Position numbers and translations under genes: made by a program. From positions 1 to 23,551 of IMG/VR virus record IMGVR_UViG_3300044648_000615: 23,551 bases of DNA; one strand, 5' to 3'. The notes beneath the pieces are model-generated. The model saw only the letters and a program-made list of their open reading frames with translations, searched no databases and was not told the origin of the DNA. This stretch comes from a virus. This document shows, piece after piece, positions 4,436-22,779 of this stretch. How positions within the stretch are numbered: the first letter of the stretch is position 1; each line of letters opens with the position of its first letter.

Positions 4436-4819
4436 TTAGGTGGGCTGGGAGCTCGTGTAAGTCAGGCTTGGGAAATTGACTGTATTGCCGCTCGTTACCA
4501 CCTGATCGGTGGTTTCATCGGTCACCAGCAAGACCTTGCCCACGTTGTCCGTGAATGCAATGTGAAGATCCGGCGCGCTGCCCGAATTGGCCGAGGCTGT
4601 TCCGCTGCGTGCCGCGACTGTCAGCACGCGTGCTGCGCCGTCGGCACCTGACAGTGCATAATCTCCGGGCGCCATTGCAACCGCACAAATTGCATTAGCA
4701 TTAACGGTTGCATAACTGTCAGCAAAGGAATATGCCTTTAACAGCAGCATGCGGCCCGCATTGTTTTTTATCGCATTCAATCCACCATCCAGTACATCGG
4801 AATGAACATACTTCGCCAT
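4436..4819 (-). CDS. Small phage structural protein, unknown role
   Basis: A 127-residue protein from ATG 4819, with AAAAGGA six bases upstream. It starts MAKYVHSDVLDGGLNAIKNN and continues as a beta-rich, Ala/Ser/Thr-rich protein with the phrase DLHIAFTDNVGKVLLVTDET. This resembles a widespread small phage virion protein of unknown function in which a 'tossed' N-terminal helix precedes a beta-barrel. It is the first gene after a strong intrinsic terminator, only 21 nt from the U-tract. It probably belongs to the same minor structural module as the next two genes; I cannot assign a precise position in the virion. Confidence 0.6.
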   Translation of the reverse strand: MAKYVHSDVLDGGLNAIKNNAGRMLLLKAYSFADSYATVNANAICAVAMAPGDYALSGADGAARVLTVAARSGTASANSGSAPDLHIAFTDNVGKVLLVTDETTDQVVTSGNTVNFPSLTYTSSQPT

Positions 4820-4840: not shown

Positions 4841-4868
4841 AAAAAAAGCCGCCCGAATAGGGGCGGCT
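4841..4868 (-). terminator. Intrinsic terminator after the tail nozzle gene
   Basis: On the minus strand an 8-bp perfect stem (AGCCGCCC at 4847-4854 pairing with GGGCGGCT at 4861-4868) with a 6-nt loop is followed by seven Ts (4847-4841). It lies 108 bp past the nozzle stop and 21 bp before the next start codon. The next gene therefore has no room for its own promoter between the two. Confidence 0.9.
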
Positions 4869-4928
4869 GCGTTTGGGCGACAAAAATCAGGAAGAAAAAC
4901 TGCTTGAAATACCTTTAGCGGCTCGAGA

Positions 4929-4964
4929 GCACTCCCTGGAGTGCCAATCCGGCCCCTCGATTGG
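4929..4964 (-). promoter_or_regulatory. Pair of adjacent hairpins downstream of the nozzle gene
   Basis: Two perfect 6-bp hairpins lie side by side in the 157-bp spacer after the nozzle stop: GCACTC/GAGTGC with a 4-nt loop (4929-4944) and CCAATC/GATTGG with a 9-nt loop (4944-4964). Neither is followed by a U-tract, so they are not classic terminators. They could protect the 3' end of the upstream message or be a processing site. The function is unknown. Confidence 0.45.
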
Positions 4965-4976
4965 GACTTATGGTAG

Positions 4977-7013
4977 TTATGCCTGCTTCAATCCATCCAT
5001 TGTTTCAGCCAGGACAAGGCTGTTTACCTTCACATTGCCGGATAGCACAAACTCCACGTTATCGGCCTTATAGCCGCCGGGAAGCCGAAATGCCCTGTTA
5101 TTCTTGACCTGTTTGGTAAACTTCAGCGACCCGTCGCTCCATAATTGAAATTGCAGGGAGTCTATGGATAAGAGGGGAATATCCTGGGTCGCATCACCCC
5201 CGATCTCGTATTCACCGAGACAGGTATCTGCCAGTCCGTCATTCATGGAATAAGAACTGATCAATGTCTGGTTGGCAGCGATAGCCTCCTTATAGGAGGA
5301 TTGCGCCGCTGCTCTTTCTTCTTCCGTCATTTCAAAATCGGCATCGATCTTCCCCGCACCATAATTAAGCGGTGGAGCAGTAACGAACCGTTTGCTTTTC
5401 CACTCATAGAAAAGCTTGGCTCCCGTATCCCCTTCCCATTCGTAGATTTTCTTGTTTGTGGCGATGTAAAGCTTGCCGGTTATGGGATCTGTCCAGACGC
5501 AACTGATGTTCTGGTTGATTTTTGTAAAGGATGCATCCTCCGCCTTATCGATCACGAACATCAGGGAGCTCTCACCAGCCGAATAGCCACAGTAATAGCG
5601 GTTATCGGCAGAGGTCGCGATAAAGGTATCGGGATTCAGTTCGGACCACTCCTTCTGGGTAAACAAATCTTTGGTGACAATATCGCTACTTGCCCCGATC
5701 ATTACCATTCCTTGCGGAGCGGGATACCCGATGCCAAATGCAAAATTCGCTACTCCTCGTTTCGAGCTGCAAGGCCAAGCCACCCCCAGCTTCTCCATTC
5801 CTCCGCCCATGGTCGCAGGCTCAACCCCGGTCAGGGTGAAGGGGTTGCCCTTGGTCATGCCAACCAATGTGGTTCCCATTGCAGCGATGGCTACAATTTC
5901 CTGGTCGTATGTTTGTCGATACGAAGTAGGCCAGGCGTAAGGTTTGAACGGTTCCGAGAAAAGCACCTCATTACCCGTGAATCCTGCGGCAATTCCATTC
6001 GCAAGCATAACAATGCCTTTCATGTTGACCGGGGGCATTTCCCAGTTCGTGGAGGGCAGTATTTCTCCCAGGGCAATAACCGTATCAGGAACAGTATCGC
6101 TGTAACTTTTTGTAACCGCTGAAAGTGTTGCGACATAGCGATACTCGGTCCCTGACGAAGTGGTAAGCGTCCGATAGATGCGCTTGTTCATCCCCCCGGT
6201 ATTGTGTGGCGCCTGGCGCTTCCACCTCCCACCACCGGCGTAGACCTGGTCTGTAGAAAGGGATATGACTACCTTTTTGGTTACCGGATCCACGCTTATC
6301 AGAATGAATTGACCGTTCAAGTCAGTCACGCCTGATACCGATTCAAACTGGATTTCCTCGCGCGCTCTTAAACCGAAGACGGTATCAAGGCTGATTTCCA
6401 TTTGGCCGGCAACTGGAGAATTCCTGGAAACAGCAGTAATTGTCCCGGAATTGGGGGGTGCTGAGTCCAGATTTGAAATCATCCAGGTTGCGTCTATCTT
6501 TCCACTGGTCACTATCGAAGCGGGAGAAGGTTGCGACTCTTCCCCCCATTGCGTGACAAATGTATAAACATAGGCACGGGAAGTCACTGCTCCGCTTCCA
6601 CCCGACGCAGTCACCAGTGGCTCGCTAACCGGGGGTGTAACCCCAAGTACATAGCAGGTGGACGGATAAGTATTGGTGCCCGCTGTTGCCATTTCAAAGT
6701 TGGAGGTGCGCGGCTCCCCGTCACCCGTGTAGTAGAACCGCTGAAGCGTATCCCCTGCAACAGGCGAGCGGGCTACATCGACATCCCTGCTCCAGACGAG
6801 CCACTTTTCGCTCCCATCCTTTTCCATCCTGAACATCGACTGGATTTCGCCATTGATCTGGGGAGAAAAAACAAGTAGCGGCGCGTTCCTGGGCCGCAAG
6901 TCGCCAGCGGCAAGGTTGCAATTGGTCGCCGTCTGCGCCTGGTTCGAGCTGAGCAAGTGCTTTGCCAGCCGCGGCACAAGGCCGGAGAATCCGGAAATCC
7001 TGAATGCGCTCAC
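4977..7013 (-). CDS. Tail nozzle protein, T7 gp12 (tail tubular B)-like
   Basis: A 678-residue protein starting at GTG 7013 (AGGAG upstream), with a GTGA overlap with the endolysin stop. The N-terminus, with SGLVPRLAKHLLSSNQAQTA and NCNLAAGDLRPRNAP, is typical of podoviral nozzle proteins, which begin with a 'GG.../P...LP..QA..A.N..l..G.l.p' pattern. Fibronectin-like or insertion segments follow (YVYTFVTQWGEESQPSP, then KRIYRTLTTSSGTEYRYVA). A beta-propeller-like region has blades such as MKGIVMLANGIAAGFTGNEV and GMVMIGASSDIVTKDLF. Nozzle proteins form the hexameric distal tube of the short tail and gate DNA exit. The length is within the usual 600-800 residues. Context within the structural operon agrees. 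Confidence 0.8.
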   Translation of the reverse strand: MSAFRISGFSGLVPRLAKHLLSSNQAQTATNCNLAAGDLRPRNAPLLVFSPQINGEIQSMFRMEKDGSEKWLVWSRDVDVARSPVAGDTLQRFYYTGDGEPRTSNFEMATAGTNTYPSTCYVLGVTPPVSEPLVTASGGSGAVTSRAYVYTFVTQWGEESQPSPASIVTSGKIDATWMISNLDSAPPNSGTITAVSRNSPVAGQMEISLDTVFGLRAREEIQFESVSGVTDLNGQFILISVDPVTKKVVISLSTDQVYAGGGRWKRQAPHNTGGMNKRIYRTLTTSSGTEYRYVATLSAVTKSYSDTVPDTVIALGEILPSTNWEMPPVNMKGIVMLANGIAAGFTGNEVLFSEPFKPYAWPTSYRQTYDQEIVAIAAMGTTLVGMTKGNPFTLTGVEPATMGGGMEKLGVAWPCSSKRGVANFAFGIGYPAPQGMVMIGASSDIVTKDLFTQKEWSELNPDTFIATSADNRYYCGYSAGESSLMFVIDKAEDASFTKINQNISCVWTDPITGKLYIATNKKIYEWEGDTGAKLFYEWKSKRFVTAPPLNYGAGKIDADFEMTEEERAAAQSSYKEAIAANQTLISSYSMNDGLADTCLGEYEIGGDATQDIPLLSIDSLQFQLWSDGSLKFTKQVKNNRAFRLPGGYKADNVEFVLSGNVKVNSLVLAETMDGLKQA

Positions 7014-7564
7014 CCCGCCAGCTCTCCTGTTCCGGGAGAGCTATCCTGCTGTAAATCAGTTCCTCGTCCCTCGCATAATGCCCGTTCCTTGGCACGCCTC
7101 TTCACGAGCCCCGGCAGTACTTTTTTACCGGGGCCATACTTGAATGCCTCTATGCGCTGACACGCTTCCGCATACCGTCCGGCATTGAGCAGGTCGATAA
7201 GATTAGGCGGTTTTCCAGGTAAGGCTTTTCGGCAGAATGCACCGACACCGATGTTATAAGCGAGGCTCACATACGCCTCATACTCATGCTGATATAGAGG
7301 CACAGTCACGCAGCGTCTGACTCCAGCCGCATAAACATCCTCGATTTCATCCAGCAACCGGATCAAAGACCTCTCAGGAGTTGTCTTGTCTCCCACTTTC
7401 ACGCCCATAGTCGTACCAAACCCGATGGTGGGGACATCCCCGCGCACAGGGATATATGCTTCATCCTTATACCCCTCGTTCACCGCGATTCCAACCAGTG
7501 TTGATGCAGCCACCACTAATAACGCTACAGCGGACCTGCCTTGGCTAAACAATGGCTTACTCAT
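7010..7564 (-). CDS. SAR-type endolysin, GH24 lysozyme
   Basis: A 184-residue protein from ATG 7564, with GAGGA eight bases upstream. Residues about 11-28 are a weakly hydrophobic Ala/Val/Ser/Gly segment with no charged residue (VALLVVAASTLVGIAV). This is a typical signal-anchor-release sequence that exports the enzyme by Sec and holds it in the inner membrane until the membrane is depolarised. The GH24 core follows: E30 in NEGYKDEAYIP, T46 in DVPTIGFGTT, then YVSLAYNIGVGAFC and the C-terminal LPGLVKRRAKERALC. The Asp expected nine residues after Glu is a Pro here (P39); D43 is the nearest acid. It cleaves peptidoglycan glycan strands during lysis. Cys residues (C85, C111 and others) could form isomerising disulfides. 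Confidence 0.9.
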   Translation of the reverse strand: MSKPLFSQGRSAVALLVVAASTLVGIAVNEGYKDEAYIPVRGDVPTIGFGTTMGVKVGDKTTPERSLIRLLDEIEDVYAAGVRRCVTVPLYQHEYEAYVSLAYNIGVGAFCRKALPGKPPNLIDLLNAGRYAEACQRIEAFKYGPGKKVLPGLVKRRAKERALCEGRGTDLQQDSSPGTGELAG

Positions 7565-7615
7565 CTTTCGATTCCTCGTGTTCCATGCTTATTTATGCGT
7601 ATCGGTATGCAGGTG

Positions 7616-7891
7616 TCAGGGAATAGTTTCTGTGATGCAATCCAGCTTCGCCTTTATGGTCTCCTTCACATTGCCTGCATTCAGTGTGGCGCACGAGGAT
7701 ATTTCCGGAATGGGAGATGCTGGCTTGGATTTTGGCTTCGAAACCTCCGCGGGATTCATCGATGTTTGCGGTTGTACCGTCGAAACGTGTGGCTCCATTG
7801 GGGTTTCGTTCGTCACCGGCGGTTCATTCGTCACGAGGGGCGTAAGCATGGTGCACGATGCCAGAAACAAGGCTGCCAGCAAATACCTCAT
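7616..7891 (-). CDS. Small proline-rich lipoprotein, candidate second o-spanin
   Basis: Starting at ATG 7891 the protein has 91 residues, and the start makes an ATGA overlap with the stop of the upstream membrane protein; GGGGGAG lies upstream. A longer start at 7912 is possible but would remove the coupling. Residues 1-13 (MRYLLAALFLASC) are a lipoprotein signal peptide with lipobox LASC and lipidated C13. The mature part is rich in Pro, Thr and Ser (TNEPPVTNETPMEP), as in Rz1-type outer-membrane spanins, and has two more cysteines. With the upstream coiled-coil membrane protein and the downstream endolysin it looks like a lysis cassette. A clearer Rz/Rz1 pair exists at the other end of the window, so the spanin role is a hypothesis. 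Confidence 0.65.
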   Translation of the reverse strand: MRYLLAALFLASCTMLTPLVTNEPPVTNETPMEPHVSTVQPQTSMNPAEVSKPKSKPASPIPEISSCATLNAGNVKETIKAKLDCITETIP

Positions 7892-8199
7892 GCCTTTCTC
7901 CCCCTCGCCCATTTCTCGATGATTCTGTCGAGCTTGTCATTGAATTCCTTCATCGTTTCACGCTGCTCGGCTCTCACCGATTTGAGTTCCTCATCAAGGC
8001 GTTCATTAGTTCTTTCCTGATACAGCTCGCCTCGTTTCAGGGTCGCGATATCATTTTGCACCGTGTTATACGTCGCTACGCCAGATGCAACCAAACCCGC
8101 CACTGCAATAATTCCACCGAAGGATAATGTGTAGGTGGATGGTCCACGCCGCCTCTCGACCCTGTTCGCGACCTCATGGTCGCCTTCATCCTCAGCCAT
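7888..8199 (-). CDS. Single-pass membrane protein with coiled coil, candidate i-spanin or holin-like
   Basis: The chosen start is ATG 8199, two bases after the stop of the upstream small gene, giving 103 residues; ATGs at 8217 and 8265 would extend into that gene. The sequence begins acidic, has a basic patch at residues 13-18 (RVERRR), one transmembrane segment at about 23-44 (TLSFGGIIAVAGLVASGVAT), then a charged heptad-like coiled coil to the end. The basic patch before the segment predicts N-in, C-periplasmic topology, as in inner-membrane spanin subunits. It overlaps the lipoprotein gene by ATGA. Alternatives are a holin-like or antiholin-like membrane protein. No conserved Rz signature is recognisable. 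Confidence 0.6.
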   Translation of the reverse strand: MAEDEGDHEVANRVERRRGPSTYTLSFGGIIAVAGLVASGVATYNTVQNDIATLKRGELYQERTNERLDEELKSVRAEQRETMKEFNDKLDRIIEKWARGRKA

Positions 8200-8201
8200 G
8201 A

Positions 8202-8378
8202 TCAGGACAAACCCCATAAAACTATTGCAAATACGACCGCACCCAGCAATATTGGAGCGGTCCATTTCGATTCCTTCAACTTTTCCAATAAACCATCTGC
8301 GCGGGCTTCAGCTGCGGCACGTTGACTTTCCACTTCTTCCTGGATGGCTTTGATACGTTTGCGTTGAAACATGGTCAC
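8202..8378 (-). CDS. Small C-terminally anchored membrane protein, possible holin
   Basis: A 58-residue protein. The start is decided by a perfect AGGAGG at 8391-8386 placed seven bases before GTG 8378; the ATG at 8372 two codons on would have a 13-base spacer. Residues 3-37 are a charged helical stretch (QRKRIKAIQEEVESQRAAA). The last 20 residues (WTAPILLGAVVFAIVLWGLS) form a single transmembrane segment reaching the C-terminus, so the protein is probably tail-anchored. It is the first gene of the cluster that continues with two membrane-associated proteins and the endolysin. That suggests a holin or a lysis regulator, but the sequence alone does not prove it. Confidence 0.6.
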   Translation of the reverse strand: MTMFQRKRIKAIQEEVESQRAAAEARADGLLEKLKESKWTAPILLGAVVFAIVLWGLS

Positions 8379-8385
8379 AATAATT

Positions 8386-8391
8386 CCTCCT
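8386..8391 (-). promoter_or_regulatory. Consensus Shine-Dalgarno that selects a GTG start
   Basis: AGGAGG on the minus strand lies seven bases from GTG 8378 and thirteen from ATG 8372. The optimal spacing supports the GTG as the true start of the small membrane protein. Confidence 0.75.
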
Positions 8392-8402
8392 GGGTATTGA
8401 AT

Positions 8403-8443
8403 AAAAAAGCCCGTTCGAGCAAAAAAAAAAGCGGCTACGCCGC
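8403..8443 (-). terminator. Tandem intrinsic terminators after the fibre gene cluster
   Basis: Reading the minus strand, a GCGGC-GTA-GCCGC hairpin (8443-8431) is followed by ten Ts (8430-8421). A second, weaker hairpin (GCTC GAAC GGGC) with six Ts (8408-8403) comes right after. They separate the tail-fibre genes from the lysis-like cluster, whose GTG start is only 24 nt further on. Confidence 0.8.
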
Positions 8444-8479
8444 ATCTTGTTGTCTCGTTTAAAAAATTTCGATCATGTT

Positions 8480-9070
8480 TTACCACTTGATGTCATCCAA
8501 TTGCTGCCGAGTGGGAAAATCACCAAGCGCAGCAATCATCTCCTGTAATCTCTGCCTCTTGCCCGTCAGTTGGCCATGCACTCTCGCAAATGCAGCAGCC
8601 TTGGCAATAATTTTGGCCGCCAGATCTGCCTTACTCATATTTCGAGCCTCAGCAGCGCTGTCCAGCCAGGGAGTATGGGCTTGAGGATTCGAAAACCATG
8701 CCTTTGCTTCCCCTTCCTGTAATGCCCAGCTTTTAACTTCTTCCTCTGGATAAACTGCTGTCAACTCCCTTACATCGGACTGATAAGCAGTGTTGATCCG
8801 GGCGACAGCCGCTGCTTTCATTTGATCCGGACCCGCTGCAGTCAACACGGTGATTTGTTCTGATGCCGCGGTTTTCCATAGATCCACAAATGGCTGAAAC
8901 TCCGCCATGTTTGTGAGCAGCGTATTTGCAGTATCGTCATACTCTATATGGCCGCTTGTATCGTTCCACTGTACAGCGCGCACGTTGGCCCTCAACGACG
9001 ATAAATCGATTCGCCTGAATACGCCATCGATTCCAACCACGCTGTCGTCCCGAATGATTGTCACTCGCAT
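8480..9070 (-). CDS. Putative tail-fibre accessory/assembly protein
   Basis: A 196-residue protein from ATG 9070, overlapping the upstream gene by 10 bp. The N-terminal ~50 residues are beta-rich, with the phrases GIDGVFRRIDLSSL and VRAVQWNDTSGHIEYDD. These recur in small phage proteins encoded beside tail fibres. The rest is helical and Ala/Glu/Gln-rich; the segment SKADLAAKIIAKAAAFARVHG followed by GKRQRLQEMI resembles the C-terminal helical domain (DUF4376-like) of fibre-associated proteins. The terminator behind it closes the fibre gene set. A chaperone or fibre-attachment role is inferred from these similarities and the position after the collar protein. Confidence 0.6.
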   Translation of the reverse strand: MRVTIIRDDSVVGIDGVFRRIDLSSLRANVRAVQWNDTSGHIEYDDTANTLLTNMAEFQPFVDLWKTAASEQITVLTAAGPDQMKAAAVARINTAYQSDVRELTAVYPEEEVKSWALQEGEAKAWFSNPQAHTPWLDSAAEARNMSKADLAAKIIAKAAAFARVHGQLTGKRQRLQEMIAALGDFPTRQQLDDIKW

Positions 9071-9411
9071 ATCTCGCTCTGCTCCAATAAACCGTTACCC
9101 TGGACCTTCCTGTTGGCCAGGTGCGCTGCCACAAGCAGCACCTGTTGCGTTTTCTCGCTGTGCTTCACCATCTCATTACGGAAGGATTCTGTAGCTGCGG
9201 CGCCCTTGCGGGATTCGTTGGCAGTGTTGATCATTAACGTGGGCAGCCAGCCTATAGCGCATCCCCATGAATCGGTTTCCTGTCCCGTATTGGTATTTAC
9301 GCCGCGAACCTGCACATACCATGGACATCGATAAAGGACAGGTTTGTCATCCTCGAGCTTAAGCTCTTCACATTTTGCCTCCAGCGGACAATTGGCTATG
9401 CGTATTTCCAT
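9061..9411 (-). CDS. Cysteine-containing small phage protein, unknown role
   Basis: A 116-residue protein starting at ATG 9411, whose A is the last base of the preceding TGA (TGATG junction); a TTG one codon earlier is unlikely. The N-terminal half has cysteines in IANCPLEAKCEEL, YRCPWYV and SWGCAIG, a spacing that could bind a metal or form disulfides. The remainder is a predicted helix with many polar residues, ending in a Cys near the C-terminus. It is sandwiched between the collar fibre and the fibre accessory gene, with overlaps on both sides, so it is made together with them. I cannot name a family with confidence. Confidence 0.55.
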   Translation of the reverse strand: MEIRIANCPLEAKCEELKLEDDKPVLYRCPWYVQVRGVNTNTGQETDSWGCAIGWLPTLMINTANESRKGAAATESFRNEMVKHSEKTQQVLLVAAHLANRKVQGNGLLEQSEICE

Positions 9412-10307
9412 CAATCCTTACTCGCTATGATTATGTCGATGTATTGCACGGCAAGGTTGATGGCCGTCCCGGTAAAAATATGGCTGTGCGAGCCACCGCC
9501 ACCTGTGCCGGTATCCGTAATTGGCATTCCGGTAATAGTTCCACCTCCCCCACCGCTGGGGTTAGCTCCTCCGCCTGATGTCCCATACACGCTCAAACTG
9601 TGGGTATGCGCCGGCATCTGCGCCGAAGTCAACGTCGTCGCGCTGTTCCAACCCGAAACTGCCTGCGACGTGAAGGCTGACGTGAACGCGACCGAACCAC
9701 CCGAACCGCCACCGGCACTTCCTACAACACGCAGTGCCTTATTATGATGCGTCGTGACCTGAGTCCAGCCTGCCGGAGCCGTCGCCTGAAAAAATGACAT
9801 AACGGTTCCAGGGGGAATGAGGCTCGCAGGCGCAGCGCCTAGAGTCGCTCTTGCAGCCGCCGCATTATCATCATTCAGCAAGCTCCGGATATAGGAACTC
9901 AGATTCGCCAATGCAGCTGTGCCCGGTCCAGTGAAATATGCCATCTTATCGGCTGACGTTTCCAGGGCGCCAAGCGCCTGGAGATTTGGATTTGCAAGGG
10001 ATTCCTGCAAGGCGATGTTGGTCACCCCGGCAACGAAGTAATCGCCTGCTGCCCAGGTACGGGGAGCCGTACCGTCCAGTCCTCGTCCTCCTTGCGCGAT
10101 GGTTAAGCTGTCGGTCGTACGTGCCTCGATTTTCACGATTTCCCGGTTGCCGGAAGCATCCTTGAATATGCCGTAGAAATAATCGCCGATGCCCGGCGAT
10201 GGAAAGAGAACGCCCTTCCCGGCCTCCACCGTGAAGCTCAATCCTGTTGTCCCGCTCGGGGCGGAACTGATAATGGCCTTGCCAAAATTCGAGAATTTGA
10301 GTCCCAT
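9411..10307 (-). CDS. Tail fibre protein with phage tail-collar domain
   Basis: A 298-residue protein from ATG 10307, with GAGGA six bases upstream and 2 bp after the previous stop. Residues 1-100 are a virion-attachment-like beta domain (LTIAQGGRGLDGTAPRTWAA is typical of phage fibre N-termini). Residues 164-195 carry the tail-collar signature (IPPGTVMSFFQATAPAGWTQ). The C-terminus has glycine-rich loops and two His-x-His motifs, HTH at 234-236 and HSH at 274-276. Such motifs coordinate metal in trimeric short tail fibres such as T4 gp12. It ends with a beta-strand (VQYIDIIIA). It is probably a trimeric fibre that contacts the host surface. No C-type lectin variable domain or diversity-generating element is seen with it. 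Confidence 0.85.
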   Translation of the reverse strand: MGLKFSNFGKAIISSAPSGTTGLSFTVEAGKGVLFPSPGIGDYFYGIFKDASGNREIVKIEARTTDSLTIAQGGRGLDGTAPRTWAAGDYFVAGVTNIALQESLANPNLQALGALETSADKMAYFTGPGTAALANLSSYIRSLLNDDNAAAARATLGAAPASLIPPGTVMSFFQATAPAGWTQVTTHHNKALRVVGSAGGGSGGSVAFTSAFTSQAVSGWNSATTLTSAQMPAHTHSLSVYGTSGGGANPSGGGGGTITGMPITDTGTGGGGSHSHIFTGTAINLAVQYIDIIIASKD

Positions 10308-10309
10308 GT

Positions 10310-10933
10310 TTATCCTCGTCTCAGGATCGCTGTCTGGAGGGGCGCTCTGGCATAGCTTCTGGCTACCCTCATGCCTGCTGCCGCCGTCTTGATAATGAAC
10401 TGTTGCTGGTGATAGGCGGCTAGCTGGATATTGGTATAGGGCTTTTTAGGGGACAGCATTAGCCGCGTCAGCGCGCCGTGAATGATGGCTTCGCGGTATT
10501 CGTGGAATAGTCCGTCATCAATCCCTGTACTGGTGGCCGAAGGTTTTAACGCGACCCTTATTGCCAATACTCCGTTACTATCCGGAGTTGGAATCAGGGT
10601 CAGCGAAGATGGGCCACCAAGAACATACCGCGGTTTGCCAGTTTGGCGACCCCAGTTTTTGATCGTGATGTTCTTCTCGCAGGCAAAAGACTCTATTTCT
10701 TCTCCATCCAGCACTGCATTTATGATGGCATGAACTGCCGCGCCTTCAGGTGGAGAAAAGGGATACTCTGCAATGCCCCCCATTACGAAGACAGGCTGAT
10801 GCTCGGTTTGCCAGGCCACGGATTGCTCACAAAACGCTATAGAAGATTGGCGCAACGCACTGTCGGCTGCAGCAGCAGGACATCCAGGCAGGTCTGGCAT
10901 AAGCAGATCATAAAAATCGCTCCAGAATTTCAT
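10310..10933 (-). CDS. Putative tail/neck connector protein
   Basis: A 207-residue protein from ATG 10933, with an ATGA overlap with the upstream adaptor gene. It starts with a short helical segment (FWSDFYDLLMPDLPGCP), followed by a helix that contains RQSSIAFCEQSVAW. A beta-rich middle part includes GGPSSLTLIPTPDSNGVLAIRVALKPS, and the end is helical, with REAIIHGALTRLMLSPKKPY resembling ring-forming connector proteins. The arrangement helix, beta domain, helix and the location between the DUF6682-like adaptor and the fibre resemble the head-to-tail or tail tubular A-type proteins of podoviruses. The exact ring it builds is inferred. Confidence 0.6.
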   Translation of the reverse strand: MKFWSDFYDLLMPDLPGCPAAAADSALRQSSIAFCEQSVAWQTEHQPVFVMGGIAEYPFSPPEGAAVHAIINAVLDGEEIESFACEKNITIKNWGRQTGKPRYVLGGPSSLTLIPTPDSNGVLAIRVALKPSATSTGIDDGLFHEYREAIIHGALTRLMLSPKKPYTNIQLAAYHQQQFIIKTAAAGMRVARSYARAPLQTAILRRG

Positions 10934-11262
10934 GGTTGCGCCTCGGAGCCGAACAACTGCATGAATAGTGCGGCACGACCGGAATTGACGTGCTCATCGT
11001 CAGACATTTCTGCTCTGGCCGTAACATAGTCTGCTACTGTCTGGAGGTATATAGGTGGTAGCGGAAAAGCATCATCCAAGGCGCGTTCCCCATCAGGCAG
11101 GTTGTTGAACCTGCCTATGAACAGATCCGGTCGTCGCTTGAGTATCTGCAGCATCCCCTGATTGGCAAAGGACAATAATACGGTATCCGGATAACGCGTC
11201 TTGTCGTCGTCATTGAGCGGGATGCGAGCCAACTCGACAATTGACTGATATGAGAACGGCAT
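10930..11262 (-). CDS. Head-tail adaptor-like protein (DUF6682-type)
   Basis: A 110-residue all-helical protein starting at ATG 11262, in a TGATG junction with the preceding stop. The pattern LARIPLNDDDKTRYPDTVLL followed by SFANQGMLQILKRRPDLF is characteristic of short phage adaptor proteins: an inserted-residue N-terminal helix, a 'RY.D..LL...N.G' motif, then 'RPDLF'. Next come PLPPIYLQTVADYVTARAEMSDDEHVN and the final helix RAALFMQLFG. Such adaptors bind the portal and extend the connector. Position between the capsid genes and the connector supports this role. Confidence 0.7.
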   Translation of the reverse strand: MPFSYQSIVELARIPLNDDDKTRYPDTVLLSFANQGMLQILKRRPDLFIGRFNNLPDGERALDDAFPLPPIYLQTVADYVTARAEMSDDEHVNSGRAALFMQLFGSEAQP

Positions 11263-11630
11263 CAGTCCGGCATCTCGTTCTTGGAAAACAGGGCAATCAC
11301 TTTATGCCGTATCGTCCCCTCGTTTTGGCGCTTATCCAGCCGTTCGTTGTATTTACGCTCGGCAAACTCAAGCAGAGCTTTTTTACCCATGGAATGAAAG
11401 TCGATCACCGGCAGCGGTTCTTCAACCGGTTTCTCTGGTTGCGCCAACCCGATCGGCACAACGTTATCCAGCGTCTCATCGTGGACGCGCATCCACGTAT
11501 CGGAGTAGACGAGCAGCCTCTCAGTAACTTCAGCGCTTACATTCCGCACTTGGCCCGGTTCCCAGCGCAGTCCCACCCCATTGATGCTGTCAATCTTGAT
11601 GCCGGCGGCAATATATTTGACTTTTGGCAT
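11262..11630 (-). CDS. Conserved phage protein of unknown function
   Basis: A 122-residue protein from ATG 11630, with AGGA seven bases upstream. The first ~60 residues look beta-rich (KVKYIAAGIKIDSINGVGLRWEPGQ, then LLVYSDTWMRVHDE), like the small beta domain that many phages encode near capsid genes. A proline/glutamate linker (QPEKPVEEPLP) leads to a charged helical tail (GKKALLEFAERKYNERLDKR). The gene begins only 10 bp after the U-tract of a strong terminator, so it must be reached by readthrough. It lies between the cement and adaptor genes; a structural or head-completion role is plausible but unproven. Confidence 0.6.
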   Translation of the reverse strand: MPKVKYIAAGIKIDSINGVGLRWEPGQVRNVSAEVTERLLVYSDTWMRVHDETLDNVVPIGLAQPEKPVEEPLPVIDFHSMGKKALLEFAERKYNERLDKRQNEGTIRHKVIALFSKNEMPD

Positions 11631-11640
11631 ATAAAATCCT

Positions 11641-11679
11641 AAAAAAAGGCGATTCCTAGAGACCTTGGGAATCGCCTTT
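11641..11679 (-). terminator. Strong intrinsic terminator after the capsid genes
   Basis: A perfect 12-bp inverted repeat (11645-11656 with 11668-11679) with an 11-nt loop is followed on the minus strand by a run of seven Ts. It lies 23 bp past the cement gene stop and 10 bp before the next start codon. It probably caps the abundant capsid message while letting some polymerase read into the tail genes. Confidence 0.9.
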
Positions 11680-11702: not shown

Positions 11703-12143
11703 TTACTTGACGCCTATTGCCTCGCCCGTGACGATTGCAGTGATATTGCCCGAAGCAAATGCAGTGGCCGGTGCAGTTACCGTCAGGATAACATACACAT
11801 CTTTTTCGAATTTGATGGGTTGAAATCTCAGGTCGGTAAGAGCCACACCGGATAAAATCGTTGTAGCAGCGGAAAAATAATCGTCATCCTCGACAGGACC
11901 TTGCCCGGAGTCGACTGGGGTATAGCCGATTTTTACAGCAAACGTGGTGCCCCCTGTATCCAGATCGTCATTTACTATCCGTAACGCCGTAACACTCATG
12001 CCAGCCGGAATTCTGACCGGACGATAGATGCTTCCAACCACCCCGGATGAGGGCGTTGCTGTCCCATAAATCATCGCGGCGTTGCCATAGTTGCCCATGG
12101 GCATCGCTTTGCTGTTCAGATCTGGTGCACTAAAAGTAGCCAT
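11703..12143 (-). CDS. Head cement/stabilisation protein
   Basis: A 146-residue protein immediately downstream of the major capsid gene, from ATG 12143 with GAGAG upstream. It starts MATFSAPDLNSKAMPMGNYG, then reads as a series of beta-strands: IYRPVRIPAGMSVTALRIVN, TTFAVKIGYTP, LRFQPIKFEKDVYVILTVT and NITAIVTGEAIG. Length, composition and position match the jelly-roll cement proteins that BPP-1-like phages encode next to the capsid gene. Such proteins bind the capsid surface and stabilise the packaged head. The assignment rests on these features. Confidence 0.72.
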   Translation of the reverse strand: MATFSAPDLNSKAMPMGNYGNAAMIYGTATPSSGVVGSIYRPVRIPAGMSVTALRIVNDDLDTGGTTFAVKIGYTPVDSGQGPVEDDDYFSAATTILSGVALTDLRFQPIKFEKDVYVILTVTAPATAFASGNITAIVTGEAIGVK

Positions 12144-12169
12144 TTATATCTCTCGGAAAAGTGATGGTT

Positions 12170-12196
12170 GAAAGCGGACATTAAAGCTCCGCTTTC
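12170..12196 (-). promoter_or_regulatory. Perfect hairpin between capsid and cement genes
   Basis: GAAAGCGGA (12170-12178) and TCCGCTTTC (12188-12196) form a perfect 9-bp stem with a 9-nt loop in the 78-bp gap between the two genes. No U-tract follows on the minus strand, so it is not a normal terminator. It may be an mRNA-stability or processing element that sets capsid against cement levels; this is inferred. Confidence 0.5.
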
Positions 12197-12221: not shown

Positions 12222-13493
12222 TTAAAGTGGTACAGCCGAGTCAACCGCAATCACGCCAAAGTCGGTGGGTACCTTGAAACCTGTTCCATCGTCGATAGAG
12301 AAACGGGTTTTCGCTTTGCCGCAAACCTTCTCGCCCATCACTTCCAGGTTACTTTCAAAGTTATACCAATGCTCCTTCCATCCGAACTGCATTCCACTGA
12401 CCCTGGTTTTGCCATAAGCGACACCCAGTGCTTGTGCGCCTAATAATAATCCGCGCTCGATCGCGTACCCGGCAGTCAATGCTCCATTGACAGCCTGATC
12501 GGTTTCTGTTGCAGTTGCCGCGTTTGCTGCGGTGACTATCTTCGTGCTTTCGCCAGGCATGAAGCGGATCGCGCGCTCATTCTTGATCACCAGAATGCCA
12601 TTCCACATTCCAACCTCACCGGCAAACAGCGGATGGCGCTCGTCAAAATATGACGCCCGATTGATGGCGTTCTGCTGGAATGCACGCAACGAACCTTCGG
12701 TCAAAAGGAGCGAGTACTGATTGGGTGTGGCGAGAAATACCCACATCCTGGAAGTCTGCGCGGCTCGATCCCCTGCCAGTTTGACGGATTGCAATGGCTG
12801 ATCCATGTCGTCAAGCCTCTTCCGCAGCTGATCCAGATGCGACAAGCGCAGGGCGTCCGTTGAAACGATGGTTCCCAACTGCTGTCCCCCTGAAGTCAAA
12901 TTGGCGCCGTTCACTACAAAATGACGATTATAGGTAGGTGCCTTCACGGGATTCACCATTATGGAACTGAAGTTCGGTGCGCTTTGAAGCGGTACTGTCC
13001 AGTCCGAACCGGTTTGCGAACCACGTGCTCCTGCAAGATGCACCAGTGTTTCCTGAGCGTCGAGACGGGGGAAATAACCTGACAATTGCGCCAGGGCAAT
13101 TTCACGCAACTGATGCTTGGTGCGTTGCTGCGACATGCTGCCACCGGCATCGATGACTTTACTGGATAGATCGATCTTGATCTCCATTGAGGAAAACGAA
13201 AGTGCACTGCCCCGTCCTTCACGATTGACATCGCCCATCAACGGCTCACCGCCCACCGTATCGACCAGATCGAGCGATACGACATCACCAGCACTTTTCA
13301 TTAAATTATCGATACGCACAACAGGCATGCCCGGATTTGTTTGACCGGCAATTTTCTGCATTGCTACTGAAGGCTCGACCGGGCCGACAAGGCTGTCAAT
13401 CGCTGTGGATCCTTTGAGTGTGTTGGCGAAGAGCGCCGCGCTATAATGTTTGACTGCCAGTGAACTTCCGCTTGCTACGTTTGTTTCAGCCAT
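12222..13493 (-). CDS. Major capsid protein (DUF4043-like, HK97-type fold expected)
   Basis: A 423-residue protein from ATG 13493, 14 bp after the scaffold stop. The segments VVSLDLVDTVGGEPLMGDVN, GSALSFSSMEIKIDLSSKVI and AGGSMSQQRTKHQLREIAL follow the pattern of DUF4043 / N4-gp56-type capsid proteins: a 'G..v...l...L.G.p..Gd...eG.e..l.f' region, then 'm..qr...dlr..a...L..y'. Later parts include NQYSLLLTEGSLRAFQQNAI, WNGILVIKNERAIRFMPG and the C-terminal domain with FGWKEHWYNFESNLEV. It assembles the icosahedral head together with the portal, scaffold and cement protein. Length and context fit well. Confidence 0.9.
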   Translation of the reverse strand: MAETNVASGSSLAVKHYSAALFANTLKGSTAIDSLVGPVEPSVAMQKIAGQTNPGMPVVRIDNLMKSAGDVVSLDLVDTVGGEPLMGDVNREGRGSALSFSSMEIKIDLSSKVIDAGGSMSQQRTKHQLREIALAQLSGYFPRLDAQETLVHLAGARGSQTGSDWTVPLQSAPNFSSIMVNPVKAPTYNRHFVVNGANLTSGGQQLGTIVSTDALRLSHLDQLRKRLDDMDQPLQSVKLAGDRAAQTSRMWVFLATPNQYSLLLTEGSLRAFQQNAINRASYFDERHPLFAGEVGMWNGILVIKNERAIRFMPGESTKIVTAANAATATETDQAVNGALTAGYAIERGLLLGAQALGVAYGKTRVSGMQFGWKEHWYNFESNLEVMGEKVCGKAKTRFSIDDGTGFKVPTDFGVIAVDSAVPL

Positions 13494-13507: not shown

Positions 13508-14470
13508 TTAATCAAGTTCGGCTCTCAAGGCTGCCGCCTGATGCGTGGGCATCTTCATCAGCTTCTGAGCAAGTTCAAATGGGCTCAGACTCTCAAGCTG
13601 CTCACGTTCAGAGGCTGGATTTGCTCCACCCTGAATGTCCGATAGAGTTACAGGCTTCCTCACCGGGGCTGCCTCAAGCTTGGCTTGCACATTGGCTTTC
13701 ATCATTCCCGGATCGGATTTCTTTTTTAGAGTGGAGGCTTCCGGCATGATTGCCCTGACACGCCGGACAACCTCCTGGAACCGTTCCGCATAAGGCTTTC
13801 CTACCCACTTTGTATTGGTTCTCAGAATTTCGTCCTGCTTCAGTGCTTCTTCCCACGCGTCGGCGTCATTACTTTCCCAATGCACGAGATCAGGATTATT
13901 GTCTTTTGCCTCAGCGACTTGCTCTGCAGTACTCAATTGGTTTATGCGCTCGGATTCCTCTTTTTCGCGCTCCAGTTCCCGCAGTGTTTGCTCCAGCTTT
14001 TCGCCTTGCTTCCGACTTCCCTCAAGCAGCGTGCTGAGTACCTGATGAAGTTGAGGCATTTCTTCTTTCAGAGCCTCCAGGTGCGTCTTGAGTTTTTCAT
14101 CCAGCGCAACGGTCTCTACTTCCTTTGCTTCCTCTTTCCGCATCAGGAATTCATCGAGTTTGCCTTGCGCGGATTTTAGCTGCTCACGCAGCGCCGAGTT
14201 CTCTACCCGCAATTCCTTGTGCTTCTGGTAGGGAATGGTCCCCTTGCCGCTCTTGTTCAGAACGACAGGCTCATCTTCACTTTCATCGTCGCTCGCCTTG
14301 CCGGGCATGTCGTCCTTCACACCGGAGCTGGATTTCTCCGTTTCCTCTTCCTCAGATGCTTCCTGCCTGTCTAGAATTTCTGCAAGCTTGTTCGGGTCGC
14401 TTTCCAATATTTCAATTTGTTCCGGCGTTAGATTTGCGATTTGCTCATCCGTAAGCTGATCCACTTCCAT
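13508..14470 (-). CDS. Capsid scaffold protein
   Basis: A 320-residue, extremely charged, Glu/Lys/Gln-rich protein predicted to be mostly coiled coil. It starts at ATG 14470 with a consensus GGAGG six bases upstream. Residues 1-30 include TDEQIANLTPEQIEILES, a helical motif frequent at phage scaffold N-termini. A Ser/Asp-rich linker (about 38-75) and long heptad-like helices (about 85-190) follow, with a helical C-terminus (SPFELAQKLMKMPTHQAAAL) that probably binds the coat. It directs capsid assembly and is then released. It sits right before the capsid gene, as usual. The first ~90 codons and the upstream leader are duplicated, in broken form, 2.1 kb upstream. Confidence 0.88.
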   Translation of the reverse strand: MEVDQLTDEQIANLTPEQIEILESDPNKLAEILDRQEASEEEETEKSSSGVKDDMPGKASDDESEDEPVVLNKSGKGTIPYQKHKELRVENSALREQLKSAQGKLDEFLMRKEEAKEVETVALDEKLKTHLEALKEEMPQLHQVLSTLLEGSRKQGEKLEQTLRELEREKEESERINQLSTAEQVAEAKDNNPDLVHWESNDADAWEEALKQDEILRTNTKWVGKPYAERFQEVVRRVRAIMPEASTLKKKSDPGMMKANVQAKLEAAPVRKPVTLSDIQGGANPASEREQLESLSPFELAQKLMKMPTHQAAALRAELD

Positions 14471-14502
14471 CTTTCCTCCAACTACTTAACCCAGTGAGCG
14501 GG

Positions 14503-14517: not shown

Positions 14518-14617
14518 GTTCAAAAAAATCCCCGAGCAACACAAGAAGTACATTGATCAGAGGTTTCCAGGACTACTACTGCAATATTGTCGCTAGCCTA
14601 TTCACATGAAAGCCAGT

Positions 14618-14648
14618 AAAAAAGCCGCCACTGTTTCCAGAGGCGGCT
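14618..14648 (-). terminator. Intrinsic terminator after the second tailspike cassette
   Basis: On the minus strand AGCCGCC (14648-14642) pairs with GGCGGCT (14629-14623) around a 12-nt loop, followed by six Ts (14623-14618). It lies 21 bp past the stop of the lyase-like gene. The same element recurs after the first cassette, at 16728-16757. Confidence 0.88.
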
Positions 14649-14669
14649 CGATAGAGTCTGATTAAAACG

Positions 14670-16572: not shown

Positions 16573-16624
16573 CTTTCCTCCAAACTACTTAACCCAGTGA
16601 GCGGACCTGCCTTGAGCAGGGTTC

Positions 16625-16670
16625 AAAAAAGAAACCCCTGAGCAAGCACAAGAAGCGCATTGATCAGGGG
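16625..16670 (-). terminator. Second intrinsic terminator in copy B
   Basis: On the minus strand CCCCTGA (16670-16664) pairs perfectly with TCAGGGG (16641-16635) around a 22-nt loop, followed by TTTCTTTTTT. The equivalent place in copy A has mismatches, so the stem is intact only here. Confidence 0.7.
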
Positions 16671-16727
16671 CTTCAACACTACGACTGCATAATCGCCGCT
16701 AGCGCGTTCGCATAAGCGAAAGCCAAT

Positions 16728-16757
16728 AAAAAGCCGCCAATGTTTCCAGAGGCGGCT
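16728..16757 (-). terminator. Intrinsic terminator after the first tailspike cassette
   Basis: AGCCGCC (16757-16751) pairs with GGCGGCT (16738-16732) around a 12-nt loop with a TTTTT tract (16732-16728). It lies 20 bp past the beta-helix gene stop and is the counterpart of the terminator at 14618-14648. Confidence 0.88.
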
Positions 16758-16777
16758 CCTGATTGATCTGTTTGGTT

Positions 16778-18947: not shown

Positions 18948-20939
18948 TTATGCGGATAATGCGTTACCTATATGACAATCAGCTATCTTCTCCGCCTCCA
19001 GACGGAGTTTCGCATCATCCATATCCTCTTTGTGCGCCTGCGCACGCGCTTTTAAGTGAAGGTCGCATGCCTTGTCCTTAAGCTGCTGCTCAGCCTCTCC
19101 CAATCTCTGCTGCAACTCACCAATCTGCCCTTGCGCCTCCTGTATCATCTGCTGCACTTGCTGCTGCAAAGCCTGAAATTGGGGATTATCGTCGCTACCG
19201 GCCGCTTGCCTTAACTGATGGGCCAACTCATGCCGGTTCGGGACATTGGACAGCTCGAGCATTACCGGATAAAGTACAGCCTGGAACCGAGGGGGCGCGG
19301 CTTGTACGATTTGCGACATAGCTTGCAACTGCTGCGCCCGAAATGTCGGAGTAGCAGGAATATCCTCAAGCACAACTTTGACCGTTGCAGAAGCAATGTC
19401 GTTGTGTACCAACCCGTCATCCAACTGGCGATTGAAATAAACCACCTTTGGTTTATTACCTTGCTGGACTGTAATTTGCGCGGGTCTTCCAATCAGGTCC
19501 TCCTTGATCAGTGCAAGAAGTTGCTGGCCAACAAGTCGGCGAGCATGGCGAAAATTATCATTGGGCTCCCCCAACACGGTCGACCCCTGTTCCACCAGAC
19601 TGTTGATCGCCACACCGCTGCTTGCTGAGGTATGCGCTCCCAGCATAGTGCGGTAGATTCCGCCCACTTCCTCGATCTTGCGCTTGCGTTCCTGCACGAG
19701 CTGAAACACTTGGGCGGCAAGCTGATGCTCGCGTATTACCCTGAAGCCACTGGTATTCCTTCGCTGAGAGTTGAGGATGGTCATCGAGCGCAGACTGCTT
19801 ATATTATTCGCAACCTCCTGATAAGAATTCTGGCTGAGATCGAGCGCATCATTGTCCACTTCGACTTTTACCGAATTGAGGACTTCGTAGAGAAGAATAT
19901 CCAGATCGATAATCTGATCCTGTGGTCCCCGCATGTCACGAATCAGCCCGTAGGGAGCTCGGCTCCTATCCTTGCGAAAGCACCAGAACGGAACATATGG
20001 AAAATCTGAATGAGGTAATGGACTCCGAACATCCATGAGTTTATGCGGCCCCAACCAGATCGAGACCCGCATCCTGGTGAGAACCGACTTCTGGACCTGC
20101 ACGAGACCTTGGGCAACCGCTGCCTGATGATATGGGTTATCCTCGCGATATTCGATTACCTTTCCATCAGGCAATCCCAGAACGTATGCATCCTCGAAAT
20201 GCCGATACCATAATTCGGAGAGCCTGACCATACCTGAGTTCCGGTTCAGGTAATCTTCCTGGTTGCGATTCCATGCCTGCTCGATTTCATACGCTCTCGC
20301 CAGGCCTCTGTCATAACCTTCATATACGTCCGTCCCGTTCCACCCCTTCCAGCTATTTGCAATGATTTCCGCCCGGTCAGGGAACATAAGTGTAGCCTGA
20401 AGCCGGTCTATCCACTTGTCGCGTCGCAGATATCGCGCATCGGACAAATCCGGCTCCCTTGAACTCCAGTCCCAATAAATTTCGTTACGGTGCACCTCGC
20501 GGACGCGATATGGATATTTGAGCGCATCAAATTCCCGGGATATTTCTACCCACCCAATGCCCGCCCGAATCATGCTGGAATATGCGTCTGACATGGTCCG
20601 GTCAGCGCGTGACTCGGTCTCGGCCTCTTTGATTTTTGCGGAAAGACCTTCCGCAATCTCTGTCTGACTCTCATCATCCGCCGTCACCCTGTAATCCGTT
20701 CGGCTACGCGCTTCCAACCCCAATACTGCGTTAATCGTCGGTTTGATCAGATTGGAATCCTGAGGCGGGATACCGGCCATCTTCAGTCGTCCGATCACCT
20801 CCGAACTGGTCTGCGCTCCGTCGTAATAATCACAGTCCGTGTCCGAGTCCGACCGCCACTTCGGTTGATCCCGAATATCGCGGCATATTTTGTCGTAAGC
20901 CTCAATCGAAATATCTGCCGTAACACCTGCCTCAGTCAT
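18948..20939 (-). CDS. Portal protein, P22-like
   Basis: A 663-residue protein. The ATG at 20939 makes an ATGA overlap with the large terminase stop; an in-frame TTG at 20948 is less likely. The start (QPKWRSDSDTDCDYYDG), NLIKPTINAVLGLEARSRTD and the following VREVHRNEIYWDWSSREPDL with ARYLRRDKWIDR are typical of P22-type portals. The central wing/crown part contains FWCFRKDRSRAPYGLIRDMRG and PQDQIIDLDILLYEVLNSVK. The last ~120 residues are Gln-rich helices forming a coiled-coil or barrel. Twelve copies would form the ring at the capsid vertex through which the terminase loads DNA and to which the tail connector attaches. Confidence 0.92.
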   Translation of the reverse strand: MTEAGVTADISIEAYDKICRDIRDQPKWRSDSDTDCDYYDGAQTSSEVIGRLKMAGIPPQDSNLIKPTINAVLGLEARSRTDYRVTADDESQTEIAEGLSAKIKEAETESRADRTMSDAYSSMIRAGIGWVEISREFDALKYPYRVREVHRNEIYWDWSSREPDLSDARYLRRDKWIDRLQATLMFPDRAEIIANSWKGWNGTDVYEGYDRGLARAYEIEQAWNRNQEDYLNRNSGMVRLSELWYRHFEDAYVLGLPDGKVIEYREDNPYHQAAVAQGLVQVQKSVLTRMRVSIWLGPHKLMDVRSPLPHSDFPYVPFWCFRKDRSRAPYGLIRDMRGPQDQIIDLDILLYEVLNSVKVEVDNDALDLSQNSYQEVANNISSLRSMTILNSQRRNTSGFRVIREHQLAAQVFQLVQERKRKIEEVGGIYRTMLGAHTSASSGVAINSLVEQGSTVLGEPNDNFRHARRLVGQQLLALIKEDLIGRPAQITVQQGNKPKVVYFNRQLDDGLVHNDIASATVKVVLEDIPATPTFRAQQLQAMSQIVQAAPPRFQAVLYPVMLELSNVPNRHELAHQLRQAAGSDDNPQFQALQQQVQQMIQEAQGQIGELQQRLGEAEQQLKDKACDLHLKARAQAHKEDMDDAKLRLEAEKIADCHIGNALSA

Positions 20940-22189
20940 GCCCGCCAACCTTTCATATTAATACCTCGTGCACTCACAGCCGGTTTATCCTCCTCGATTG
21001 CCACGGCAAAATAGCGAAAGGCATCGGCTGCATGGCTGTGATAATCATGTAGGGGCCTTGCGCTGAATTGACCGGAATCAGGATCGACATCAAATCGATA
21101 ATGCCTCAGGCTCTGCAGGCCTTCTGCGCAATTCAGCTCATCAAAATAGCAACGTGGAAAGATGGTTCTCGCCGCGTTGATACCATCATGAATGGAGAGA
21201 CTTGGCACGATTCTTACTTTTCGCCCCGCCGCAAGCATAATTTCCTCCACGCTGCGCCCGGTTGTCAGTGTCCGGGCTTTGGCATCGTGCGGTAACCAGT
21301 CTGTACCATACATATACCCTTTGTTTTGCAGCACTCCGATATAATGCTGAATTGGCATCTGGCTATTACTGTAGTAATCGATCAATCTGAGTTCGTTGCC
21401 AACGGTCTGCGCAAACCAGATGCTGGTGTTGTCGGCCCAACCGAGATCAAAGAAGGTATGTACCGGCTTTGCCTCATCATATGGCACGCCTCGTATCCTT
21501 CCTTCTTCCTGTGTCAATCGAAGCTCCTTCGCATAAACCGCTCCCTCCAGCGTTACCCTGCAATTCCCTTCCCATACGTTCTGGTAAGCATCCGGATCAC
21601 GCGCTTTCAGTTCATCCTTTTCCCGTCGCAAGGTCTCCGGAAACCATGGGTTGTCATTCCAATTGATTTTTACTACGACAGCGCCAACAGGGGGATTGAC
21701 TACAAACCGCTGATGAGTCTCATCGGTATTGAGCTCAGGGTTGTAAGTCACCCAGATTTCCGACCCCTCTTTACGAATAGTCGGAATAAGTGTATTCCAA
21801 CTTGTTTTGCTCACTGTCTGTGCTTCTTCCACCCAGACCCTGTCCACACCCTCGAACGATTTGATTCTGGTTACGTTGCTATGCAGACCGGCAAAGATGA
21901 ACTCGGAACCGTTTGTTCCACGTATAACGCTGTTTTGCACCTCGTAAAATGAGCTTAAACCAATGGCCTCTATCTGAGCTTTCAATAAATGATGCACGGA
22001 TTCGACGATAGAATTCTGAAATTCTCTCGCACACAAGATGCGCAATGGGGTTGCAGCCGCCTGAATCAATAATGCCCTGGCAACCCCCCAGCTTTTTGCA
22101 CCCCCTCTTCCCCCGTATAAGATCTTGTAGCGTGCTGGTTCAAACAGACACCTGAGTTTTATCGGAAATTCAGCTCTATGGGGAGTCAT
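20936..22189 (-). CDS. Terminase large subunit (PBSX/T4-type, Terminase_3)
   Basis: A 417-residue packaging motor from ATG 22189, 17 bp after the small subunit. The ATPase domain has Walker A at residues 26-33 (GGRGGAKS), Walker B at 118-123 (VWVEEA, with the catalytic Glu at 121/122) and the coupling motif TYNP at 148-151. The nuclease domain begins with FFDLGWADN (D248 as the first metal-binding Asp), followed by PHDAK and HSHAADAFRY near the C-terminus. The length is normal for the family. It pumps DNA into the head and cuts it, probably by a headful mechanism given the Sf6-like small subunit. The stop codon overlaps the portal start. Confidence 0.95.
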   Translation of the reverse strand: MTPHRAEFPIKLRCLFEPARYKILYGGRGGAKSWGVARALLIQAAATPLRILCAREFQNSIVESVHHLLKAQIEAIGLSSFYEVQNSVIRGTNGSEFIFAGLHSNVTRIKSFEGVDRVWVEEAQTVSKTSWNTLIPTIRKEGSEIWVTYNPELNTDETHQRFVVNPPVGAVVVKINWNDNPWFPETLRREKDELKARDPDAYQNVWEGNCRVTLEGAVYAKELRLTQEEGRIRGVPYDEAKPVHTFFDLGWADNTSIWFAQTVGNELRLIDYYSNSQMPIQHYIGVLQNKGYMYGTDWLPHDAKARTLTTGRSVEEIMLAAGRKVRIVPSLSIHDGINAARTIFPRCYFDELNCAEGLQSLRHYRFDVDPDSGQFSARPLHDYHSHAADAFRYFAVAIEEDKPAVSARGINMKGWRA

Positions 22190-22206
22190 AGCATTTGAGC
22201 CGCCAT

Positions 22207-22779
22207 TTACGACGATACATTTGGCTCATTGCCTCTATCTTCTGGAGCGACAAAAGCTATCGTGATGTTATGCACGGATTTCCTGGCATCCCCGCCCTCG
22301 TTGGTAACAGGTAATCTGTCGCCATATTTCCTGGGGGCAAGTCGTGCGGCATACCATTTGCGTGCGTCGATACGCAATTGTGCACGCGCAATAACCTCCC
22401 GGTTTATGATCTCCCGTCCCTTTTCATCGACATACGTATCTCTCGATCCCTCGTCCGAAATTTCGATGATTTCCTCCGCATAGGCATCCACGCAAAGCTC
22501 CTTGGCGCGTTGATATTGGCGCATGAGTTCTTCGTCACTCGCCAGCCAGTTCCATAAAACCCTCTGACTGATACCGACCTCCACGCACATCGCACGAGCC
22601 GATTTTCCAAGTGAAATGCCAGCAAAGATCGCGTCAAGTACCTCACGCCTCTTTATGGCTCGGCTGCTCTTTTTCGGACTCTCAGGCTCTACGCTTACTG
22701 CACCCTTTTCTGCTTCTTCGCTGGATACTTCACCCTCAAATTTACACATGCCCGGCTTTATCAGCGCTTCCCTCTCCAT
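22207..22779 (-). CDS. Terminase small subunit (Sf6-like)
   Basis: A 190-residue protein from ATG 22779, six bases after the Rz1 stop, with AAAAGGA upstream. After a Glu/Lys/Ser-rich N-terminal tail (about 1-40), residues about 44-82 form a helix-turn-helix (REVLDAIFAGISLGKSARAM, then GISQRVLWNWL). Further helices include RIDARKWYAARLAPRKYGDR, a hallmark of Sf6-type small terminases. The C-terminal ~35 residues are a beta-strand and disordered tail. It would assemble as a ring, recognise the pac site and hand DNA to the large subunit. Its position directly upstream of the large subunit confirms the assignment. Confidence 0.9.
   Translation of the reverse strand: MEREALIKPGMCKFEGEVSSEEAEKGAVSVEPESPKKSSRAIKRREVLDAIFAGISLGKSARAMCVEVGISQRVLWNWLASDEELMRQYQRAKELCVDAYAEEIIEISDEGSRDTYVDEKGREIINREVIARAQLRIDARKWYAARLAPRKYGDRLPVTNEGGDARKSVHNITIAFVAPEDRGNEPNVSS

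Follow-up and report, generated by a model that had tools for sequence, protein, structure and literature searches.

Terminator hairpins hold their place at four junctions of a phage-type late-gene cluster found throughout the examined Nitrosospira genomes

In phage T7, the terminator Tphi consists of a hairpin and U-run after the capsid gene, 17 nucleotides (nt) before the start of gene 11 (24210 versus 24228), and readthrough of it is the sole source of expression for genes 11 and 12, as stated in the consulted section of PMC5592923. A strong terminator directly after the gene of the major capsid protein (MCP) is likewise described for phage LUZ100 in an excerpt of PMC10134795. Here, we describe a series of such hairpins, T1 to T4, at four junctions of a late-gene cluster in the IMG/VR record IMGVR_UViG_3300044648_000615, analyzed over 23,551 nt (the window; coordinates below are window positions). 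T2 shares the Tphi layout: a terminator lies 3′ of the block formed by MCP and the next gene, g11703, its U-tract ends 10 nt before the following start codon (9–20 nt in scored genome sites), and no promoter lies between. T7 differs in having a single terminator, read by the phage-encoded RNA polymerase, and a local promoter for the capsid gene, whereas the window has four junctions, no annotated phage polymerase and no sigma-70-like local promoter that we could find. The gene order is the same in Pseudomonas phage H66 (Hollowayvirus), for which GenBank marks terminators ahead of the scaffold gene and behind both the MCP gene and the next structural gene; H66 differs in the poor U-tract of its T2 hairpin and in being a phage whose genes include NinB/NinG and a CsrA-like one. 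A megablast search of named phages with the window returned no match, and Rfam at gathering thresholds recognized no family in the window. All window genes lie on the minus strand, and the terminators and the genes that they separate are as follows.

16731..16758, minus strand: duplicate of T1
16634..16671, minus strand: duplicate of T1b, strong (-22 kcal/mol)
14622..14649, minus strand: T1, first of two terminators upstream of the scaffold-like gene
14522..14556, minus strand: T1b, second, weaker, terminator-like hairpin; U-tract end 59 nt from the scaffold start
13508..14470, minus strand: scaffold-like gene (phrog_479)
12222..13493, minus strand: MCP gene, major head protein (phrog_334)
12155..12185, minus strand: hairpin without U-tract in the MCP/g11703 gap
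11703..12143, minus strand: g11703, head protein (phrog_486, weak match)
11641..11678, minus strand: T2, terminator after g11703, 10 nt before the g11262 ATG
11262..11630, minus strand: g11262, gene read after T2
8403..8443, minus strand: T3, two hairpin/T-run units in tandem that follow g8480 and end 24 nt before the g8202 GTG
8202..8378, minus strand: g8202, gene read after T3
4977..7013, minus strand: internal virion protein gene preceding T4 (phrog_511)
4841..4868, minus strand: T4, terminator that follows the internal virion protein gene and ends 21 nt before the g4436 ATG
4436..4819, minus strand: g4436, gene read after T4

An initial annotation of this DNA had placed three hairpin/U-tract terminators on the transcribed strand, at distances of 10, 24 and 21 nt from the start codon that follows, and closer inspection bore this out. 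T2 has an 11–12 bp stem (11678-11646) and a T-run that ends at 11641 and adjoins an AGGA Shine-Dalgarno sequence, with the ATG at 11630; the U-tract does, as had been claimed, nearly touch the ribosome-binding site. At T3, a first hairpin of 5 bp (8443-8431), weak on its own at -7.1 kcal/mol, is followed by ten T, and a second small hairpin (8420-8409) by six T ending at 8403, with the GTG start at 8378. T4 comprises a GC-rich 8-bp stem (4868-4847) and a T-run ending at 4841, with the ATG at 4819. Absent from the initial annotation were the two terminators that precede the scaffold gene (14649-14622 and ~14555-14522) and their duplicates (16758-16731 and 16671-16634).

Orthologous junctions were compared in MCP-bearing loci that were mapped gene by gene: 80 kept of 182 in IMG/VR, a number that includes some redundant loci, and 29 in genomes, where only gaps of 20–450 nt were scored. 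Among the partly redundant IMG/VR relatives, a terminator was present at T2 in 61/65, at T3 in 28/28 and at T4 in 21/26. The genome sites together with the window gave 24/26 for T1, 20/22 for T2, 18/19 for T3 and 16/18 for T4, and both T2 misses (G009 and G012a) display hairpins by eye. At control junctions, terminators were scored in 0/19 (g7616 to lysin), 1/25 (MCP to g11703) and 2/12 (g4436 to g3968). The stem sequences have diverged between clades while their pairing is kept, and T2 hairpins in genome sites are more stable than shuffled sequences (median z -2.6).

Counts within the window are by themselves modest, marginal evidence against chance. A strict scan found six strong sense-strand matches (≤ -12 kcal/mol), of which one falls within a gene and the other five in intergenic gaps; 200 dinucleotide shuffles averaged 1.7 such matches and had at most 6. 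A looser terminator scan yielded 25 versus 19.8 ± 4.6 expected. A permissive first scorer, with 27 sense matches versus 11–30 in 30 shuffles, was replaced by the stricter one. What rules out a chance origin is conservation, since the same four junctions hold terminators in relatives and nearly no other junction does.

We consider it probable that these hairpins are intrinsic terminators which stop part of the polymerases, and that the genes downstream are supplied by readthrough in a graded attenuation. The initial annotation had held that readthrough must occur and had attributed the tuning either to graded attenuation, which remains the best reading and has a precedent in T7, or to an antiterminator, which fares less well (see below). 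We infer that termination is partial. One long late transcript would be cut stepwise: packaging and fibre genes would precede T1; the scaffold gene, MCP and g11703 would lie between T1 and T2; neck and fibre genes between T2 and T3; lysis and internal virion genes between T3 and T4; and distal genes beyond T4. The terminators lie near the next Shine-Dalgarno sequence and, mostly, ~15–45 nt past the previous stop codon, a spacing by which the ribosome would neither melt the hairpin nor be blocked by it. Because the genes beyond T2 would rely on readthrough, capsid proteins would be made in excess over neck and tail proteins, as with T7 Tphi. This agrees with a drop from capsid to tail proteins, as proposed in the initial annotation, at T2, which follows MCP and g11703, but fits T3 and T4 less well, as these lie among lysis, internal virion and unassigned genes.

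The U-tracts end 10–24 nt before the start codon, and a promoter cannot fit into this gap, as had been noted. Promoters within the upstream genes could instead feed each block independently, with the terminators simply ending separate transcripts, and T7 and LUZ100 do have local promoters preceding the capsid gene. Within the 1000 nt before g11262, seven sigma-70-like sites occurred in 26 sequences (mean 0.27 versus 0.40 in shuffles), none of them shared, and 15 such sites were found in 20 kb versus 16.6 expected. Furthermore, in three relatives (L045, L049 and L057) the T1 U-tract adjoins the leader motif described below, which leaves no promoter space there. Promoters of non-sigma-70 type would escape these counts, and we regard independent supply as quite improbable. 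Given that no promoter fits into the gap, that no sigma-70-like site is shared and that the Q families searched gave no match (below), readthrough is the simplest supply for the downstream genes. No single-subunit phage RNA polymerase is present among the annotated window genes (the genomes were not searched for one), and the host RNA polymerase is the most likely transcriber, as the cluster is late-gene-only, vertically inherited and chromosomal.

Several observations weigh against simple termination. Taken as a single hairpin, T3 in the window is weak (z -1.1). T4 is missing in some sites and T1 in G007b and G026. Among 12 named distant phages, a hairpin occupies the T2 junction in 11, but at least five T in the next 8 nt are found in only five, and shuffle support at this junction is weak in several (DC1, BcepMigl, Parlo and Skulduggery). 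In G013, g11262 has no terminator immediately upstream. In this genome, as in G021 and G023, a fibre cassette separates g11703 from g11262. Directly after g11703, a terminator-like hairpin is still found in G013 and also in G021, where its U-tract is poorer; such a hairpin directly precedes g11262 in G021 and G023.

As the hairpin outlasts the U-tract in distant phages, T2 may also have a part in the processing or stability of the RNA. Were this the main role, the RNA would be cut between hairpin and Shine-Dalgarno sequence, the upstream piece would be stabilized, and the stoichiometry would arise from mRNA decay. Besides the distant phages, which often keep the T2 hairpin without a U-tract, the hairpins in the gap between MCP and g11703 fit such a role: in relatives their stability exceeds that of shuffles (median z -2.2) and they mostly lack a U-tract, only 1/25 being scored as a terminator. 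Yet within Nitrosospira, T2 retains its U-tract along with the hairpin in 20/22 sites while the adjacent MCP to g11703 hairpin goes without, as expected if T2 terminates. We judge a mainly processing or 3′-end-protecting function to be unlikely.

Between T1 and the scaffold start, the leader RNA contains a further conserved hairpin, m2.

14490..14502, minus strand: m2, conserved leader RNA hairpin with a 3-bp stem and the loop GCUCACU, just before the scaffold Shine-Dalgarno sequence
16593..16605, minus strand: duplicate of m2; relatives G001 and G002 also have two matches

The heptaloop GCUNAC[G/U] occurs in 61/61 unique leaders, and all three stem pairs are kept in 32/32 unique windows, two of them via compensatory changes (shuffles: mean 23.8, maximum 29, and mean 16.3, maximum 26, respectively). 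RNAalifold on the leader had predicted seven pairs, two with compensatory changes, and the motif was afterwards re-aligned on the loop; one step of the leader analysis used 20/40 unique leader sequences. Allowing ≤2 mismatches, the m2 19-mer gave 24 matches in 20/23 genomes and none with the reversed control, and those matches whose position was determined are at scaffold leaders. In 41/61 unique leaders a second copy, m1, occurs ~45 nt upstream of m2; it was undetected in the window, and its stem is nearly invariant and thus uninformative on pairing. The m2 hairpin may act in translation control, as an RNA-binding site or in antitermination.

The last of these roles bears on a third explanation, in which a Q-like protein or a put/nut-like RNA would carry polymerase processively past T1–T4 once the cluster is switched on, the terminators otherwise keeping it silent. 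Several terminators in series would suit this scheme, as would a covarying, conserved leader hairpin placed after T1 and before T2–T4. However, m2 adjoins the Shine-Dalgarno sequence and is equally suited to translation control, and no early region was found at the locus. The antiterminator gene that the initial annotation expected did not appear: the Q-type families PF06530 and PF03589, which do not cover other Q types, each matched 0/19 of the sequences searched (15 genomes and 4 virus records), while controls matched. The cluster is in this respect unlike lambda with its Q-type late antitermination. With regard to lambda nut and HK022 put, cis RNAs downstream of the promoter that make polymerase ignore terminators, what is seen here is the presence of conserved leader hairpins and no Rfam family in the window. 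We give processive antitermination little chance and retain partial termination with readthrough as the preferred explanation.

The relatives' hosts are Nitrosospira and Nitrosovibrio, the former a betaproteobacterial genus. The late-gene cluster is present in 23/23 Nitrosospira genomes and MCP itself in 22/23; in the remaining genome (G027), the terS, terL, portal and scaffold genes are followed by the contig end before MCP. Across the whole family, 23/125 genomes match, and outside the genus 1/102, at 42% identity. A site comparison covered 21 primary sites and two second copies (G024 and G027 were left out, and the upstream side of G002 was unscored). Common host neighbors were found at 20/21 primary sites: upstream a thiamine pyrophosphate (TPP) enzyme, a flavin mononucleotide (FMN) reductase, a 198-amino-acid (aa) gene and a 528-aa gene, and downstream a glycosyltransferase, an O-antigen ligase, a TonB receptor and DUF1264. 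These flanking genes belong to host metabolism and the cell surface. G026 shares no neighbors because its contig begins at the cluster.

The initial annotation had looked to an early region outside the window and to an infection or induction program. This expectation does not fit a cluster that is chromosomal, genus-wide and free of an early region where examined; beside the cluster none was found in G001 and G014, the other sites being judged by their common host neighbors only. Among the PF00589 (tyrosine integrase) matches listed, which reach down to ~58 bits, the nearest is separated by >130 kb from any MCP on its contig (serine integrases and transposases were not searched genome-wide). 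In G001, a single transposase gene lies close to the cluster.

For 11 cluster genes, distances correlate with those of rpoB (Mantel p 0.001–0.002, Spearman 0.36–0.86; window, second copies and the G023 portal left out), MCP having the lowest correlation (0.36). A tree of the concatenated cluster genes, without g11703, shares 10/18 splits with the rpoB tree, versus a random mean of 0.2 and a maximum of 3 in 1000 (G024, window and second copies left out). Of the well-supported rpoB splits (support ≥0.9), 7/10 appear in the cluster tree and 3/10 do not. The dN/dS values (nonsynonymous to synonymous substitution rates) of cluster genes range from 0.00 to 0.49, mostly <0.3, indicating purifying selection, and the structural, packaging and lysis genes are intact with the exception of the G023 portal, in which an in-frame stop lies within the part aligned to the window portal (L174).

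Genus-wide occurrence at a common locus, congruence with rpoB, purifying selection and the lack of a nearby integrase suggest that this late-gene-only cluster (the window and loci L082–L101 and L125–L177) is a domesticated element, possibly resembling a gene transfer agent (GTA), that is kept by selection. The rpoB congruence and the missing integrase led us to reject ordinary prophages at a common integration site as the principal explanation. Exchange with phages is nevertheless likely, because the second copies G004b, G007b and G012b nest inside the cluster tree and MCP tracks rpoB least. Second copies at other loci (G004 C2:1075312 and G007 C24:370263; L153–L156) have a gene of 2,227–2,278 aa downstream and none of the conserved neighbors, and may be real prophages of the same lineage. 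For N. multiformis 25196, cadmium-dependent prophage induction is mentioned, as a cited result, in an excerpt of a review (PMC9502458).

RcGTA and other viriforms likewise are sets of late genes of phage origin that occupy a fixed position in the chromosome, with host co-evolution, purifying selection and no nearby integrase. Compared with these, the Nitrosospira cluster has a podovirus-type gene set and resides in an ammonia-oxidizing genus. We tentatively propose that it could be a podovirus-derived, vertically inherited GTA that has lost phage late control and in which four leaky terminators, read by the host polymerase, and the leader hairpin set the stoichiometry in cis. No such Nitrosospira cluster was reported in the literature searched, which comprised titles and abstract beginnings, with most subscription journals outside its coverage.

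The overall gene order in the window is spanin, terminases, portal, a variable fibre/depolymerase cassette, scaffold-like gene, MCP, g11703, neck and fibre genes, lysin, internal virion protein and distal genes. Further features of the late cluster are given here.

18948..22779, minus strand: portal, large terminase and small terminase genes
14670-18934, minus strand: fibre/depolymerase cassette (beta-helix protein, polysaccharide-lyase domain), its content differing between relatives
4869-4976, minus strand: 108 nt of non-coding sequence from the internal virion protein stop to T4, present in the N. multiformis group and short in many others

The duplicates listed above belong to a larger duplication (14198-14649 and 16319-16758, 83–100% identity) comprising the scaffold 5′ part, the leader and both terminators. 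Its two segments flank the g15407/polysaccharide-lyase genes, and by its arrangement we read it as the trace of a cassette insertion. Seven named distant relatives (L112, L113, L116, L118, L119, L120 and L122) carry a gene for a CsrA-like regulator amid their structural genes; none was recognized in the window.

In their layout the terminators vary a known arrangement, and the surprising parts are the genus-wide, possibly domesticated cluster and its leader RNA. Terminators directly before a ribosome-binding site have usually been recorded singly, as with T7 Tphi, while here four of them keep their place across a genus. Because the four sites hold their positions while their stems change, comparing them offers a test of how terminator strength relates to the ratios of virion proteins. 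A late cluster without nearby integrase or early genes, carried by every examined genome of Nitrosospira, whose members drive nitrification in soil, makes a strong candidate for a GTA-like particle that has been domesticated.

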